Source of the DNA: Methylococcaceae bacterium
GTDB taxonomy: Bacteria > Pseudomonadota > Gammaproteobacteria > Methylococcales > Methylomonadaceae
DNA: 7,883 nt
Assembly (NCBI GenBank): GCA_947505055.1
Contig: CANNLO010000213.1
Location: 1-7,883, forward strand
Reading direction: 5' to 3'
Shown: piece by piece, positions 2,651-7,490 of the stretch
Numbering within the stretch: the stretch's first letter is position 1
How the letters are laid out: every line of letters starts with the position of its first letter
The notes under the pieces: model-generated
What the model saw: only the letters and a program-made list of their open reading frames with translations
Database searches by the model: none
Told to the model about the DNA's origin: nothing
Translations under genes and position numbers: made by a program

Positions 2651-3604
2651 TCAGGACAAATTCAGGAAGATTTTAATGATGGGATTTGTACCGCTGCTTT
2701 TTTTCAATACGGTGACGCTGTCGATTATTGTTTGATCCACAGTGCAGTTTCTAATATAGGGCTCACTGCCAAAAAAGATGCTATTTACTTTCATGCCGAG
2801 TTTGAGTTGAGGCAAGGAGATTTCAACAATAGGGACGGCAGAGTTGGCGCGATTTCGATTGTTTAAGACTAGGCCTTTTTGCCACCGTTCTGTAGCTATG
2901 GAGACGAGCTTCGCTTTGGCAATGGCGGCTTTAAGTTCCTCAACGGTTGCGCCGCTCAGCACATTTACAAAAACATCGACAACCTCCGCATCATAGTAGC
3001 TTTCTTTTCGAATCATCAATTGACTGATTACAATGTCTGCGAACATGGCATGCCCCGTCATTGAGCCGTCAATATAAGCGTTATAGTCGCTGACGACACT
3101 GAGTATCCGAGAGCCTAAGGGAATATGTTTTTGAGCTAGGCCGTCCGGAAAGCCTTGGCCGTCATAGCGTTCGAATTGGTGCCGCATTAAAAGCGCAGCG
3201 GCTTCAAATTGCGGCAAACCTTTCAATAAAGCCTCACCGTCTACCGCGTGTCCTAGATAGCGGTATTTATCGACTATAGACATTGAATAAAAAGGCTTGG
3301 TTAACAAGCTATTCGGTAAAAGGCTCTTGCCGAGTGGCAGTAACAATGCTGCATAGAGAATATTTTTTTTATCTATTTCGCTGATATCTAAGCCCTCTGC
3401 GATCAGGAAGGCTTTTTCAGCAATAAATTTTGACTGTCCGCTTTTAATGCCGGGTCGCGATTCAACAATGCGCGAGAGTGTCTGGACGAACTTAATATTC
3501 AGTTTTATTAGTCTGTCATCGGCATGGTCAAGATGCTGCGTTGCAATCTTGAATTGTTCGATATATTTTGTTATTTTTTCTTCCATATGTGGGGCGTTTT
3601 CCAT
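2651..3604 (-). CDS. Degenerate HD-GYP-like protein (probable non-catalytic c-di-GMP phosphodiesterase relative)
   Basis: A 317-residue soluble protein. Residues about 40-215 align by eye with the HD-GYP domain, the family that hydrolyses cyclic di-GMP. The region around the GYP motif is well kept: RHQFERYDGQGFPDGL (141-156), then IPLGSRILSVVSDYNAYIDG. GFP at 151-153 stands in for GYP. The metal-binding part is lost. The position of the HDIGK motif reads LPLGK (89-93), and the expected first-motif His near residues 55-60 is absent (KSGQSK). Metal ligation and phosphodiesterase activity are therefore unlikely, and a c-di-GMP-binding or protein-interaction role is more plausible (inference). 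The C-terminal segment (about 257-317, EISLPQLKLGMKVN) resembles the small L-x-x-GM-containing domain that follows some HD-GYP domains. The ATG at 3604 is favoured by AGAGGA at 3617-3612, seven bases away. A Met at residue 7 is an alternative. No receiver domain is attached. Confidence 0.72.
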   Translation of the reverse strand: MENAPHMEEKITKYIEQFKIATQHLDHADDRLIKLNIKFVQTLSRIVESRPGIKSGQSKFIAEKAFLIAEGLDISEIDKKNILYAALLLPLGKSLLPNSLLTKPFYSMSIVDKYRYLGHAVDGEALLKGLPQFEAAALLMRHQFERYDGQGFPDGLAQKHIPLGSRILSVVSDYNAYIDGSMTGHAMFADIVISQLMIRKESYYDAEVVDVFVNVLSGATVEELKAAIAKAKLVSIATERWQKGLVLNNRNRANSAVPIVEISLPQLKLGMKVNSIFFGSEPYIRNCTVDQTIIDSVTVLKKSSGTNPIIKIFLNLS

Positions 3605-4168: not shown

Positions 4169-4616
4169 AAATTATTAAAATAAATTAAGCTGAAGTGGTA
4201 TTTGATAAGGCGTCTGGCCATGGAAAAGGCTATGATTTTGTTAAATATAGCTTTATTTGTGAGTAAAAATAAAGAAGGCTGGATGTTTTTAGGGGGTTTT
4301 AAAATTAAGTCTGTATTTTCATCTGTCAATATAGTGCTGTATCGCAGTATTTTTCAGTATTTTTATAAAATAATTGAATTTTTTATTTGTAAGGAGCTTG
4401 TGTTTAATCGTTATAGTGACGCCGTGGGAGAGGTCTACGTCGTAGCTATAATTAAAATACGCGGTGAATCATGGAGTCTGGGGTTACCAAGATGGGACAA
4501 GGAATTTTAGCCAATACCGTCATGCCGGTTGGGATGGTAATGTAGTTTATGATTTAGGTTCGAAATCAAACCAAAGCTTCACAGCCTAGACTTGATGCGC
4601 TAAGCGCTCTAACGGG
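4169..4616. other. AT-rich stretch without a convincing gene
   Basis: The only longer plus-strand frame (TTG at 4202 or ATG at 4220, to 4510) lacks a ribosome-binding site, has an unnatural composition rich in Ile, Phe and Lys, and resembles nothing I know. The minus-strand frame at 4135-4329 is equally unconvincing and runs through a hairpin. The stretch contains a perfect short palindrome, GCGCT-A-AGCGC, at 4597-4607, just outside the IS insertion point. It may be degraded coding DNA or true intergenic sequence. Confidence 0.5.
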
Positions 4617-4624
4617 TCACCCAT

Positions 4625-4635
4625 TAGCCTGCCTC
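4625..4635. repeat. IS1111-group subterminal inverted repeat, transposase-distal end
   Basis: TAGCCTGCCTC, the exact reverse complement of 6339-6349. It starts about five bases inside the element from the TCA junction at 4617-4619. It marks the end downstream of the transposase. Confidence 0.8.
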
Positions 4636-4703
4636 TGTCAATAGGCCAATAAAATCCCCCAGGCAAAATCTGATTTTTTTTCGTGTCTCTCTTCCTGTTA
4701 TTG

Positions 4704-4835
4704 AACCTGTGGACTTCGTGGGCGCGAGATCCGAGAGTGTGGGTAAGTTGTGGTCAGCAGGGACGCTGTCCATAACTTATCCACACGGCTCTGCTCGGAT
4801 CGATCCGCAGGACGCGTCCACGAAGTCCACAGGTT
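4704..4835. repeat. 132-nt nested hairpin with an exact DnaA-box sequence inside the IS non-coding end
   Basis: The outer arms 4704-4726 and 4813-4835 pair at 22 of 23 positions. The middle arms 4728-4735 and 4794-4801 pair perfectly. The inner arms 4737-4753 and 4770-4786 pair at 15 of 17, and a tip CAGC/GCTG (4755-4758, 4765-4768) closes a six-base loop. All three mismatches would be G-U wobbles in a plus-strand RNA and C-A mismatches in a minus-strand one. The right inner arm holds TTATCCACA (4777-4785), identical to the consensus DnaA box. The left arm holds a one-mismatch copy (4738-4746, reverse). The right side also contains the 12-bp palindrome CGGATCGATCCG at 4796-4807. It could be a structural part of the IS end, a nested miniature element, or a protein-binding site. 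Confidence 0.8.
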
Positions 4836-4954
4836 ATCCTTATAATTCGTTGTTTTTAGACTAAAAAAATACTGTTTCCCTGTTCATTTATGTCGCTTGT
4901 CCGAGTAATCAGTCTAAATACGCACCCGTCTTCTCGTTTAGTGGTTCGCGCAAA

Positions 4955-5256
4955 GCACTGATGCGCGCCAGTCACCCATCAGGATCAAGACAGCTGAACT
5001 TGCCCAAAGGGAAAGATTTCAGCGCCCCTGGCTCATTCGAGCCCCAGAAAATTGTCGGTGCCAAGCTTTGTCCAATTGTATTTAATACAACAGATTTAAT
5101 GGTTCTCCGTCGAAACGGACCAGACCCGGAGTGGTTCAAAGCTTAGGCGTATCAGCTTGTACTCATTGTAACAATCGACTTTTAGTCGGTTGAACGACCT
5201 ACCAATCAGGTCTCGTGGTTATTAGCCAACCCCTTTGCCGGTTCAGTCGTTCAACC
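4955..5256 (-). ncRNA. Predicted IS1111-group bridge RNA (target- and donor-binding loops); outer ends not defined
   Basis: This non-coding region directly follows the transposase stop on the same strand. Hairpin A has a perfect 11-bp stem (5246-5256 with 5188-5198) and a 47-nt loop. On the minus strand its loop carries GGGGT on the 5' side (5233-5229) and AGACCTGA on the 3' side (5213-5206). The first equals the left half, and the second is complementary to the right half, of GGGGTCAGGTCT, the insertion target. Hairpin B has a 7-bp stem (5019-5025 with 4955-4961, one G-U wobble valid only for a minus-strand RNA) and a 57-nt loop. Its 3' side carries ATGGGTGA (4979-4972), complementary to TCACCCAT at 4617-4624, the IS end itself. 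With flanking bases this becomes 12 nt including one wobble. The two loops thus fit target- and donor-binding loops. Between them are further stems (5061-5070 with 5137-5146, and a 7-bp arm palindrome at 5076-5090). A matching left donor guide was not found, and transcript ends are unknown. Confidence 0.65.
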
Positions 5257-5263
5257 TTAACTG

Positions 5264-6280
5264 TTAAGTAAATAACTTTGCAGAATCAAAGGGTACTTGA
5301 TCCCGCATCACATAATAGCTTGCCCTCGCCAGTTTATGCGCCACCGCTTTGAGTGCAACCACTCGGCTTTGTTTGGCGGCTTTGCGCTGATAAAAACGTT
5401 TAGCTTGTTCGTTAAAGCGAATGGCAAAGTTGGCGGCTTCAACAAAAGCCCACGCCAAATACTTGTTGCCATTTTTAGTATTGCCCTGGCCTTTCTTTTT
5501 GCCATTGCTCAATTTCTCACTGCCGACACAGCGGCAATAGGAGGTGAAGTTACCCACCTGGGCAAAGCGCTCAATACCGCCGGTCTCCAGCATGATAGTT
5601 AGCGCCAAAACTTCGCCTACGCCGCCGATACTTAACAAATAACGGTAGCGAGGATCCAGTTTCGCCTGTTTTAAAATAGCTTGCTCCAGTACTTTGATCT
5701 GTTGATCCAGAGCGTTCATTAGGATCCGATTGCTGTCAACCGCCAACGCCACATTCGGGTCAGCAAACTGTTGTTGTACCTGTTCTTGAGTCAGGGATTT
5801 GGTGGCATTGCAACTCAATCGGCTACCGGTGTTACGGGCATATAAATTTTCTATGCTTAAAATATGCGCAGTTCGCTGCCTAACCAATTGTCCGCGTTTG
5901 CGTAATAAATCCCTGACCGCCCGGCTTTGTTTGGGATAAATATGTCCGGTGGGCAAAATACCTAAACGTAATAAATGGGCCAGCCAGAACGCATCGGAAT
6001 CATCGTCGGTAAACTTTAAGCCTTCGTATTGTTTGACGGCAGACGTATTGACCAGATGAACCTTGTAACCCGCTTCCATCAAGCCATCCACCAGCCAATA
6101 CCAGTTGTAAGTCGATTCTACTGCAATTCCTTCAATACCTTCTTTGAACGGCTCCAAGCCATGTAGAATCTGATCTAAATCACAGCCTTGTTTCTTCCTG
6201 TAAAGCACTTTGTCTTCTTCGTTGATGAGTTGTGTCACCACGTTCGTTGAATGTAAATCTATTCCACAGTATAGTTTCAT
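5264..6280 (-). CDS. IS110-family (IS1111-group) transposase/recombinase
   Basis: A 338-residue, full-length enzyme of the RNA-guided IS110 recombinase family. The N-terminal DEDD (RuvC-like) domain shows GIDLH with Asp8, AVEST with Glu55, and the TDDDSDA motif supplying Asp93 and Asp96. A coiled-coil linker occupies about 185-208. The C-terminal Transposase_20-type domain follows (about 212-300: LLSIGGVGEVLALTIMLETG, then GNFTSYCRC, KLSNGKKKGQGNTKNGNKYLAWA). The catalytic serine must lie in this part. Ser247 and Ser258 are the candidates, and I cannot choose between them by eye. The ATG at 6280 is preceded by GAGG with an eight-base spacer, a good ribosome-binding site. The enzyme would form a complex with the bridge RNA encoded just downstream and move the element via a circular intermediate (family knowledge). 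No frameshift or stop is visible. Confidence 0.95.
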   Translation of the reverse strand: MKLYCGIDLHSTNVVTQLINEEDKVLYRKKQGCDLDQILHGLEPFKEGIEGIAVESTYNWYWLVDGLMEAGYKVHLVNTSAVKQYEGLKFTDDDSDAFWLAHLLRLGILPTGHIYPKQSRAVRDLLRKRGQLVRQRTAHILSIENLYARNTGSRLSCNATKSLTQEQVQQQFADPNVALAVDSNRILMNALDQQIKVLEQAILKQAKLDPRYRYLLSIGGVGEVLALTIMLETGGIERFAQVGNFTSYCRCVGSEKLSNGKKKGQGNTKNGNKYLAWAFVEAANFAIRFNEQAKRFYQRKAAKQSRVVALKAVAHKLARASYYVMRDQVPFDSAKLFT

Positions 6281-6338
6281 GCCTGCTTCCTCGGTTGTTT
6301 AAATTCAATGTCAGTTTACACCACTGGCACCGATCGGG

Positions 6339-6349
6339 GAGGCAGGCTA
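6339..6349. repeat. IS1111-group subterminal inverted repeat, transposase-proximal end
   Basis: GAGGCAGGCTA, exact inverted partner of 4625-4635, about 60 bp upstream of the transposase start and about eight bases inside the TCA junction at 6358-6360. The asymmetric distance to the two ends is characteristic of the IS1111 group. Confidence 0.8.
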
Positions 6350-6358
6350 GATGATTAT

Positions 6359-6372
6359 CAGGTCTTGCAATC
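6359..6372. repeat. Target-motif copy 1: right half-site at the IS junction (direct repeat with 7229-7242)
   Basis: CAGGTCTTGCAATC, identical over 14 bases to 7229-7242. From GGTCT onward it is chromosomal flank of the IS, and CA is part of the shared TCA junction. Joined to the other flank (4611-4619, AACGGGTCA) it rebuilds GGGTCAGGTCTTGC. I recall sequences close to GGGGTCAGGTCTTGCAT as common dispersed repeats in proteobacterial genomes, which is memory rather than a search result. Confidence 0.75.
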
Positions 6373-6574
6373 ATACATTTTGGCGCTGCAATACATAAAC
6401 TGTTTACTGTTTAAGAGCACAACGTTTTGATTGCTGAGTAAAAATTGCAAAATAAGGATAGACGTTTGCAGTAATAACGATTTAGCTAACGGGTTAAAAT
6501 CCTGTGGCGATTTTATCGCAGCCGAAACAAAATTTATCCAAGCTGTTATGAGCGTTTACGCAGAAGAAAAACGA

Positions 6575-6602
6575 TTGCACTTTTCTTTAAAAACGCTATC
6601 AT
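6575..6602 (+). promoter_or_regulatory. Candidate sigma-70 promoter of the hicAB operon, with flanking inverted repeat
   Basis: TTGCAC (6575-6580), a 16-bp spacer and TATCAT (6597-6602) sit immediately before the ATG at 6610. The predicted transcript would start at or next to the start codon, so hicA would be leaderless, in keeping with the lack of a ribosome-binding site. A perfect 7-bp inverted repeat AGCGTTT (6551-6557) / AAACGCT (6591-6597) brackets the -35 region, and the palindrome GCGTTTACGC (6552-6561) overlaps its left arm. These are plausible HicB operator sites, because HicB-type antitoxins with a ribbon-helix-helix tail usually repress their own operon. Confidence 0.45.
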
Positions 6603-6609
6603 TAATGCC

Positions 6610-6864
6610 ATGAACAGCAAGCACCGTAACACACTCGAAACTATTTTTTCTAATCAGTGCAGAGGAAATCTGCCGTGGGATCGTATTGAGTCGTTGCTAG
6701 TCGCTATTGGCTGCAATGTTGTGGAAGGAAGCGGATCGTCGGTAATGTTCGAGAAAAATGGTCGACGGGCCTATTTCCATCGTCCTCATCCGCAACGCGA
6801 AGCGCTTTTATATCGTGTTAAGGCTGTACGCGAGTTTTTGATAAAATTGGAGATCACACCTTGA
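6610..6864 (+). CDS. hicA: HicA-family toxin (predicted mRNA interferase), variant without the usual GSH-type histidine
   Basis: An 84-residue protein of the HicA toxin family, small dsRBD-fold RNases that cut mRNA in a translation-independent way (family knowledge). It matches the longer HicA branch that begins MNSKHRxTLExIF and carries LPWDRIESLLVAIGCNVVEG (21-40), then GSGSSVMFEKNGRRAYFHRPHP. The catalytic His of classical HicA normally follows the Gly/Ser turn (GSH or SNH). Here that turn reads GSGSS (40-44), and the conserved histidines are instead His57 and His60 in FHRPHP. The gene overlaps the next one: its TGA (6862-6864) shares bases with the TTG start at 6861. There is no ribosome-binding site before ATG 6610, so leaderless initiation is likely. 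The pairing with the HicB-type protein downstream makes the toxin call firm. Confidence 0.85.
   Translation: MNSKHRNTLETIFSNQCRGNLPWDRIESLLVAIGCNVVEGSGSSVMFEKNGRRAYFHRPHPQREALLYRVKAVREFLIKLEITP
6849..6852 (+). promoter_or_regulatory. Ribosome-binding site fixing the TTG start of hicB
   Basis: GGAG inside the end of hicA, eight bases before TTG at 6861. The alternative ATG at 6873 has no correctly spaced site, so the TTG start is preferred. It overlaps the toxin stop, giving translational coupling. Confidence 0.7.
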
Positions 6865-7196
6865 AAAACAGGATGACATACCTCGGTTATACTGCCAGCC
6901 TGGAATTTGATCCGGACGATAATATTCTGGTCGGGCGCGTGTTGAGCATTGACGATATTATCAGCTTCCATGGAGAATCAATTGCTGAATTTACGCACGC
7001 ATTCCATGAAGCGGTCGATGATTATATCTCTGCTTGCGAAAAAATAGGACAAACACCTGAAAAGCCCGTTTCTGGTCGATTGATGCTGCGCGTTGCTCCT
7101 GCAATACACGCGGCAGCACTAAAGGCAGCTTCGCACAACGGGTTAAGCCTTAATAAATGGGCGGAGCGAGTTTTACAGCAAGCCGCCCATGGTTGA
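6861..7196 (+). CDS. hicB: HicB-family antitoxin with ribbon-helix-helix C-terminus
   Basis: A 111-residue antitoxin partner of the preceding HicA-like toxin. The N-terminal part (about 5-68) has the HicB partial RNase H-like pattern: MTYLGYTASLEFDPDD, then NILVGRVLSIDDIISFHGES and a long helix FTHAFHEAVDDYISACEKIG. The C-terminal part (about 72-108: SGRLMLRVAPAIHAAALKAA, then GLSLNKWAERVLQQA) is a HicB_C/Arc-like ribbon-helix-helix DNA-binding segment. It should bind and mask the toxin and repress the operon (family knowledge). Translation starts at TTG 6861, one base before the toxin stop, with GGAG eight bases upstream. The toxin-first gene order is the usual one for hicAB. Both genes look intact. 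Confidence 0.9.
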   Translation: MKNRMTYLGYTASLEFDPDDNILVGRVLSIDDIISFHGESIAEFTHAFHEAVDDYISACEKIGQTPEKPVSGRLMLRVAPAIHAAALKAASHNGLSLNKWAERVLQQAAHG

Positions 7197-7228
7197 GTTG
7201 AAGCTGTTATTAAAGAATGAAATGGGGG

Positions 7229-7242
7229 CAGGTCTTGCAATC
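7229..7242. repeat. Target-motif copy 2, undisturbed (direct repeat with 6359-6372)
   Basis: CAGGTCTTGCAATC within ATGGGGGCAGGTCTTGCAATC. It shows the motif with its G-rich left half still attached. A short hairpin CAATC-TACT-GATTG (7238-7251) follows. It begins about 32 bp after the hicB stop, so the two copies of the motif bracket the hicAB operon. Confidence 0.75.
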
Positions 7243-7341
7243 TACTGATTGTAAAGGATTATGGGGTAAGGCAATATTGGTGACTTAATGATGGCAGTCT
7301 TTCTCCCATGGGGTATAGCTATCTACACAAGTAACTTTACT

Positions 7342-7438
7342 CTTTCTCCAGTGGGAGAAGGCGGGGATGAGGGGAGTCAAAATAAGTTTTTTCTTCATTT
7401 TAATTTCCCCTCACCCAACCCTCTCCCGCTGGAGAGGG
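7342..7438. repeat. Inverted pair of REP-like hairpins (REPIN-like)
   Basis: The first hairpin is 7342-7361, an eight-pair stem with one G-T pair and an AGTG loop, followed by GCGGGGATGAGGGG. The second is CCCTCTCC (7419-7426) and GGAGAGGG (7431-7438) with a CGCT loop, preceded by CCCCTCACCCAA. The two units face each other in opposite orientation across an AT-rich spacer (7376-7405). The second unit has the same stem as 216-235. Two inverted REP units with a spacer are the REPIN arrangement, which is mobilised in trans by RayT-type proteins (family knowledge). No such gene is in the window. Confidence 0.75.
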
Positions 7439-7490
7439 CTTCTTAACTTAAGTCAATAATACAATCCCCCATAATTCGTTACAATCAGGA

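Follow-up and report, generated by a model that had tools for sequence, protein, structure and literature searches.

The region that follows the transposase gene in the window (the whole 7,883-nucleotide stretch of DNA that was analysed) is very probably the guide-RNA gene of a DEDD insertion sequence of the IS110/IS1111 superfamily, with two loops that carry crossed letters; the bottom strand of the DNA is predicted to be exchanged first. The initial annotation had placed a guide-RNA gene downstream of the transposase, and this placement was borne out in relatives of the element by covariation of a stem and of the guides. The RNA was also described as long, and a distance of about 310 nt from the target hairpin to the donor loop agrees with that description.

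The insertion sequence, its ends and its relatives

The element and its landmarks in the window are as follows.

~4618-6360, minus strand: DEDD insertion sequence, comprising the transposase gene and a downstream two-loop RNA gene
5264..6280, minus strand: DEDD transposase/recombinase of 338 amino acids (Pfam PF01548 and PF02371), with conserved residues D8, E55, D93, D96 and S258
6339..6358, minus strand: left end, ATAATCATC (6358-6350) and then the subterminal inverted repeat 6349-6339 (11-bp perfect repeat pair; TGATAATCATCTAG-like left end among relatives)
4620..4635, minus strand: right end, inverted repeat 4635-4625 and then ATGGG 4624-4620 (repeat pair and lined-up ends of relatives)
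6359..6360, minus strand: core TG of the left junction, with the left flank GATTGCAAGACC just outside, from 6361 upwards
4618..4619, minus strand: core TG of the right junction, with the right flank ACCCG from 4617 down

The relatives used for comparison were the best 80 of 425 obtained in a genome scan, and were 54-82% identical in the best segment; a scan of viral contigs yielded no relative of the element. With the window included, 81 elements were compared, of which 60 had both ends in register (20 loci and L007 fell out), and 56 of these were usable in tests after removal of L067 and L068 (the same as L066), L051 (with a right end that is not its own) and L022 (with a shifted left end). 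Among the 56 rows, four lacked the six left-flank bases and six the left-donor motif; L004, which has an insert of about 32 nt in the donor loop, was also left out of the donor tests. When the ends of the relatives were lined up, the recurrent pattern was (left flank) TG ATAATCATC TAG...CTA ATGGG TG (right flank).

The window transposase scored 192 bits against the NCBIfam model 'IS110 family RNA-guided transposase', for which the cut-off is 140, and each of the residues D8, E55, D93, D96 and S258 was kept in 79 or 80 of the 80 aligned transposases. A length of 338 amino acids with the DEDD residues D8, E55, D93 and D96 falls within the 330-350 amino acids of the IS1111 family, as does the perfect 11-bp subterminal inverted repeat (4625-4635/6339-6349) within that family's 11-13 bp. 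The non-coding region (NCR) is about 640 bp downstream of the transposase compared with about 78 bp upstream, the longer downstream NCR being another IS1111 family feature (the median downstream NCR was 438 in 59 elements). Between the repeats and the core there are 9 bases on the left and 5 on the right, whereas IS1111 terminal extensions are 7+3 or 6+3 bp; extensions of 6+3 fit only when CAT/ATG is counted into the repeat together with one unpaired base, and L028 shows such a 15-bp repeat.

The IS1111 C-terminal motif GL-P----S(T)G, which IS4321 keeps as GLVPRQYSTG, was not found in the window transposase, where the sequence reads RCVGSEKLSNG; N takes the place of the motif's G in 80 of 80 aligned transposases, the window included. 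Because the motif is replaced by RCV-S----SN (SN for SG or TG) and the identity to the IS4321 transposase is 22%, we call the element a DEDD element with IS1111-type architecture that belongs to a separate transposase subgroup, and by transposase motif it is not a canonical IS1111 member. IS110-type groups with a downstream NCR are mentioned in the consulted part of PMC11187229.

The core of the left end was the same as that of the target loop in 56 of 56 elements. It was CG in four, the Elusimicrobia elements L025, L031, L038 and L042, where the two ends and the target loop all have CG. A three-base target duplication, TGA, was considered and ruled out by elements with T, G or C after the right-end TG, and the core is therefore TG.

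The target-binding hairpin and its guides

5188..5256, minus strand: target-binding hairpin with the 11-bp stem 5246-5256/5188-5198 (compensatory changes in 47 sequences)
5229..5233, minus strand: right-flank guide GGGGT, complementary to the target top strand ACCCC, the window's own site being ACCCG (z 12.8, 52 unique pairs)
5205..5214, minus strand: left-flank guide GAGACC (5214-5209; flank AAGACC), core TG (5208-5207) and handshake letters AT (5206-5205) (z 11.4, 50 unique pairs)

The 11-bp hairpin that had been noticed right after the transposase stop has a perfect stem in the window, and by eye a hairpin was seen downstream of the stop codon in 77 of 78 aligned sequences (L003 was the exception; L007, L059 and L074 were too short or gapped in that alignment). 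Among 47 sequences, 88.4% of the stem cells were paired, compared with 66.8% after shuffling and 44-62% in slid versions of the stem, and 101 cells were changed on both sides. None of 500 shuffles reached either the paired share or the count of two-sided changes, and such changes occurred in all nine stem pairs counted.

Along its 5′ side the loop reads as the reverse complement of the right flank, and along its 3′ side it repeats the left flank and the core. Both of the guides first read in this loop, GGGGT at 5229-5233 and AGACCTGA at 5206-5213 (minus strand), are in place and follow each element's own flanks. To quantify this, guide positions were anchored by conserved motifs, the right-flank guide could take either of two registers, in the data and in the permutations alike, and significance was taken from 20,000 permutations uncorrected for relatedness. 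As found with the 56 usable elements, both target guides track their own flanks, with 0 of 20,000 permutations reaching the observed agreement. On the left, 204 of 300 positions matched (119.2 permuted; 50 unique pairs), and on the right 262 of 312 (183.0 permuted; 52 unique pairs). The 22 unique right flanks that do not start with ACCC or TCCC gave 107 matches in 132 positions against 57.5 permuted, and ten of them matched at 6/6. Examples are L015 (flank ACAGGACC, guide GGTCCTGT), L046 (flank ACACAGGG, guide CCCTGTGT) and L075 (flank TGGGTAA, guide TTACCCA). The copy L118, which is related to that of the window, has the guide ATACTC at the flank TTACTC and, to judge from these letters, is a natural reprogramming. 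Poorer matches between guide and flank were seen in L014, L028, L053 and, on the right side, L045; the right side reached only 3/6 in L014, L034, L045 and L053.

The chance of such matches was estimated from 3,000 first-order Markov resamples of the window NCR only. An exact AGACCTGA occurred in 1.4% of resamples and a match of at least 8/9 to the left flank, core and A in 11%; a 9/9 donor match occurred in 0.23%, and together with a left-flank match of at least 8/9 in 0.07%. The window alone is therefore suggestive, and it is the relatives that decide. The loop positions that had been put forward for comparison with each copy's target and ends (5206-5213, 5229-5233 and 4972-4979) did follow each element's flanks or right end.

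The donor-binding part

4971..4979, minus strand: right-end donor guide ATGGG (4979-4975), core TG (4974-4973) and handshake letters AC (4972-4971) (right-end guide z 8.6)
5030..5043, minus strand: small hairpin between the donor guides, 5039-5043/5030-5034 (covariation)
5047..5053, minus strand: candidate left-end donor guide AATTTTC (5 of 7 pairs with core G and ATAATC; weak)

About 200 nt beyond the target loop lies ATGGGTGAC, a copy of the right end, the core and the first two bases of the target, within a 12-nt repeat (4616-4627/4971-4982) that has one mismatch (92%). The initial annotation had pointed to ATGGGTGA at 4972-4979 as a guide to the terminus of the element; it is present and repeated there, and the donor guide covaries with the right end. 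The 3′-side donor guide is thus real, but the match is not to the end of the element only, ATGGGTGAC being composed of the right end, the TG core and two target bases. The right end agreed with the donor guide at 270 of 275 positions (252.8 permuted), and the guide follows right-end changes in the ATGAG, ATGGA and ATGGC versions; mismatches were found in 5 of 55 elements (L024, L036, L060, L070 and L077). In L004 the insertion splits the donor guide, and this may be an inactivated copy. In the four elements with a CG core, the donor-loop copy of the core stays TG despite the CG of the target loop, so the two core copies need not share letters.

Of the two stems proposed initially, the target stem covaries and the second, 5019-5025/4955-4961, is not kept among homologues. 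It forms 7 pairs with one G-U in the window, but 44.0% of its cells were paired compared with 40.6% after shuffling, and 33-51% in slid versions. Cells changed on both sides numbered 26 against 16.2, above all 500 shuffles, and two slid versions also gave 26. The small hairpin at 5030-5043 had 85.9% of cells paired versus 65.8% shuffled, with 42 cells changed on both sides, and 0 of 500 shuffles reached either value. RNAalifold, applied to the donor region, predicted this hairpin together with two small helices that surround the donor guide.

Where the left donor guide had been described as not evident, a candidate with modest support was found: the stretch just 5′ of the small hairpin could pair with the left end. 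This stretch is AATTTTC in the window and GGTTTTC or GATTTTC in 24 of 50 rows. Its motif was found in 50 of the 56 rows, and the observed pairing was reached in 8 of 20,000 permutations on these 50 rows and in 144 of 20,000 on 19 unique pairs. It pairs at 7/7 in L026 and shows a matching double change in L043, with values of 5/7 in the window, 4.0/7 in L001 and L002 and 3.0 in L058. Compared with the IS621 type, which has two guides in each of two loops, three guides are firm here and the left donor guide is weak.

Crossed letters next to the core

It was found that the letters after each copy of the core match the other DNA partner: those of the target loop match the left end, and those of the donor loop match the right flank of the target. 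In the window, the AT at 5206-5205 is identical to the first two left-end bases. The target-loop letters are A, then T, A or G, and the second of them equalled the second left-end base in 54 of 56 elements (permuted mean 35.8). The first donor letter equalled the first right-flank base in 50 of 55 (permuted mean 28.2), and the second donor letter the second right-flank base in 52 of 55 (permuted mean 48.3; 50 of 20,000 permutations). This is handshake covariation with non-cognate DNA, as in the IS621 type, but located on the opposite (mirror) side of the core and subject to caveats of relatedness. Mismatches against the flank were found in L012, L028, L054, L065 and L069.

Over a transposase tree with 55 tips, 9 changes were counted for the first right-flank base and 8 for the RNA letter. 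Of 19 disjoint closest contrasts, 14 show the RNA letter following the flank; at tree distances below 0.5 this holds for 4 of 6. For the second donor letter, agreement was seen in 2 of 4 contrasts, and for the target-loop letter in 7 of 9. The first target-loop letter is invariant and the second depends on 3-4 changes; with these figures, relatedness is a concern.

A test within the RNA compared the complement of the last right-guide base with the donor letter. It covered 65 of the 78 aligned sequences: L003, L004, L017, L018, L067 and L068 were set aside, the donor loop was not found in L029, L044, L049, L055 and L064, and the motif was out of register in L032 and L035. Agreement was seen in 59 of 65 (37.1 expected), the mismatches being L012, L054, L065, L069, L072 and L073.

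Proposed mechanism and alternatives

The letters, the target stem and the covariation were observed directly; from them we infer transcription, binding and strand order. The guide RNA would be read from the minus strand, beginning immediately past the stop codon of the transposase. Within the target loop, GGGGT would act as the 5′ guide for the top strand on the right of the insertion point, and GAGACC-TG as the 3′ guide for the bottom strand on its left. The donor part would address the left end by a weak 5′ guide and the right end by a strong 3′ guide, ATGGG-TG. The crossed letters would pair after the first strand exchange, like the handshake guides of IS621, and the bottom strand would be exchanged first, in mirror image to IS621, because the handshake letters are added to the bottom-strand guides on the right side of the core.

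An unlikely alternative in which only the target hairpin works, as an 80-nt seekRNA like that of ISEc11, would leave the downstream ATGGGTGAC repeat as a DNA site or a leftover, with the ends found by the protein. An 82-nt ISEc11 seekRNA did suffice according to the sections of PMC11187229 consulted, the window hairpin is about 80 nt long and the left donor guide is weak. However, the ATGGGTGAC repeat covaries both with the right end (ATGAG, ATGGA and ATGGC) and with the target base after the core, and following a target letter is not expected of a protein site. Slightly less probable again is that the element itself contributes the base that follows the core at the right junction; the donor loop would then match its own end only, and there would be no handshake. 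The window cannot separate these two readings, having A at both places, and in 39 of 55 elements the donor letter is identical to the left-end base too. What distinguishes them is the L048 genome, in which 27 of 29 dispersed, uninterrupted GGTCTGNCCCC sites read T (a reversed-pattern control gave 1), the left end of the L048 element having A and its donor loop T. The other three genomes add little: the uninterrupted repeat has T in 3 of 4 sites in G006 (that of L065) and in 0 of 5 in each of G004 and G005 (those of L054 and L066, which do have T), where sites are no more frequent than in the controls. Of the four genomes, only G003 shows a clear excess of repeats with T, and in two the uninterrupted repeats that contain this base are not in excess. 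Where the base following the core is G or C (L027, L047 and L078), the 5′ target guide pairs with it as well. That the base after the core comes from the target is thus shown in one genome and supported by 5′ guide pairing elsewhere.

Shared ancestry could in principle produce apparent covariation if clades happened to share both a flank type and an RNA type, and the permutations do not correct for relatedness. The flanks ACCCC and TCCCC do sort largely by clade, and the second target-loop letter changes only 3-4 times. Against this, close relatives at different targets carry correspondingly different letters (L066/L080, L027/L038, L045/L031 and L047/L042), and unique non-consensus flanks still match their guides; we regard this explanation as very improbable. 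Returning to crossed letters, we lean slightly towards a general reading in which downstream-RNA elements would use the IS621 machine in mirror, with identical RNA geometry and swapped DNA strands, and in which the reversed IS1111 order would be a consequence of labelling. The target and donor loops would then not be independently reprogrammable, as each contains the target base that adjoins the core.

Relation to known systems

In the consulted parts of PMC11187229, the IS1111-type seekRNA elements ISEc11, ISPa11 and ISKpn4 resemble the present element in having subterminal inverted repeats, a long downstream NCR, the top-strand complement 5′ of the bottom-strand match and one orientation in the target. 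The same order was found here, GGGGT (5233-5229) preceding GAGACCTG (5214-5207) in the window and in the relatives tested. The initial annotation had taken the guide order to be opposite to that of IS621, as either a real group difference or a misreading; the order stands, and it is the IS1111 order published there. The NCR of about 640 bp compares with a 270-bp NCR fragment used for ISEc11, and the donor loop and handshake letters present here were not found in those parts of PMC11187229.

As far as PMC11208160 and PMC11208158 were consulted, the IS621 bridge RNA is alike in its two loops, guides for both strands, shared core dinucleotide, and 3′ guides that each end in handshake letters matching the other partner. 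In IS621, however, the RNA lies upstream, at the left end, whereas here it is downstream; the core is CT rather than TG; and the 5′ target guide includes the core, which is not clearly so here. In IS621, the handshake guides are continuations of the top-strand-pairing guides on the left side of the core, and they pair with non-cognate DNA after top-strand exchange, cognate pairing being inhibitory to exchange (PMC11208158, in part). Here, the 3′ guides read the left flank and the right end on the bottom strand, which places the handshake letters on the opposite side, to the right of the core. A published manual inspection of six elements, in its consulted part, likewise describes donor guides apparently separated by a small hairpin; the present evidence is covariation in 56 elements of one clade.

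IS4321 is similar in that the right-flank guide AAAACGGAA lies 5′ of a left-flank match (8/10), and a downstream repeat of the right end and flank is present (8/10). Unlike here, the match of its target loop continues into the target and not into the left end, and the crossed reading is only half supported in IS4321. In L137 (14474-14810), the IS4321 donor-like stretch ATAGATTC corresponds to the right end plus flank and not to the circle junction.

The element and its guide RNA are known in kind, and the mirrored handshake is apparently new; this novelty is provisional, the mirrored handshake having been sought in a literature that excluded bioRxiv and most subscription journals. Among the papers listed, handshake pairing of a guide RNA was found in PMC11208158 only, where, in the portion seen, covariation concerned upstream-RNA relatives of IS110. 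PMC11187229, in its consulted part, advises that a mechanism shared by IS1111 and IS110 should not be assumed, partly because of the reversed order of target matches; if true, the mirror model would reconcile that order with a shared mechanism. A design rule for downstream-RNA elements would follow from it, the two donor-loop bases after the core following the target and those of the target loop following the left end, and natural reprogrammings are available in the clade.

The target repeat and the surrounding sequence

7224..7242, minus strand: second, uninterrupted copy of the target repeat, GATTGCAAGACCTGCCCCC (14-nt direct repeat)
4704..4835, no strand assigned: 132-bp long-hairpin segment between the RNA and the right end (23-nt arms, 96% complementary)

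The suggestion that the element is programmed for a dispersed repeat was supported by this second copy in the window and by dispersed repeat sites in the genomes of relatives. In the genome of L001, AAGACCTGNCCC was found at 8 sites, with A following TG at 5 of them (2 sites in the reversed control), and in that of L002 at 5 sites, 4 of them with A following TG (1 in the control). The site at 4444217 in G001 is about 100 bases from the frame of a Y1 (REP-associated type) transposase (4443793-4444116), one of 12 Y1 matches, and on contig 57 of G003 five sites surround the only Y1 transposase match of that genome. REP sequences are already known as targets of the superfamily, from ISPa11 (PMC11187229, in its consulted part) and from the title of an IS621 paper in the reference list of PMC11208158.

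The 132-bp hairpin is present in the window, L001 and L002 and absent from L004, L005, L006, L009 and L034 in the same alignment, with further copies elsewhere. It might be a separate mobile hairpin inserted here or a lineage-specific part of the right end. Most matches continue into the right end, in favour of the latter, but the match of L105 stops at a contig edge, those of L110 and L120 cover one side only, and L114 and L115 match a piece of the hairpin alone. A search of 4300-6600 against Rfam gave no family above the gathering score, and three sub-threshold miRNA-family hits, all on this hairpin, were disregarded.

In Methylomicrobium sp. wino1, L134 (1470-1704) consists of about 230 bp with left-end-like and right-end-like sequences and no room for a transposase or guide RNA, and it is likely a non-autonomous derivative. 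In the window, a HicA/HicB toxin-antitoxin pair (6610-7196) lies between the interrupted target repeat and the intact copy at 7224-7242. A PAS/histidine-kinase gene (309-2438) and an HD-domain gene (2651-3604) adjoin the element and are apparently unrelated to it. By eye, CTCTCC-rich palindromic stretches at 218-247 and 7337-7440 resemble dispersed REP-like sequences.
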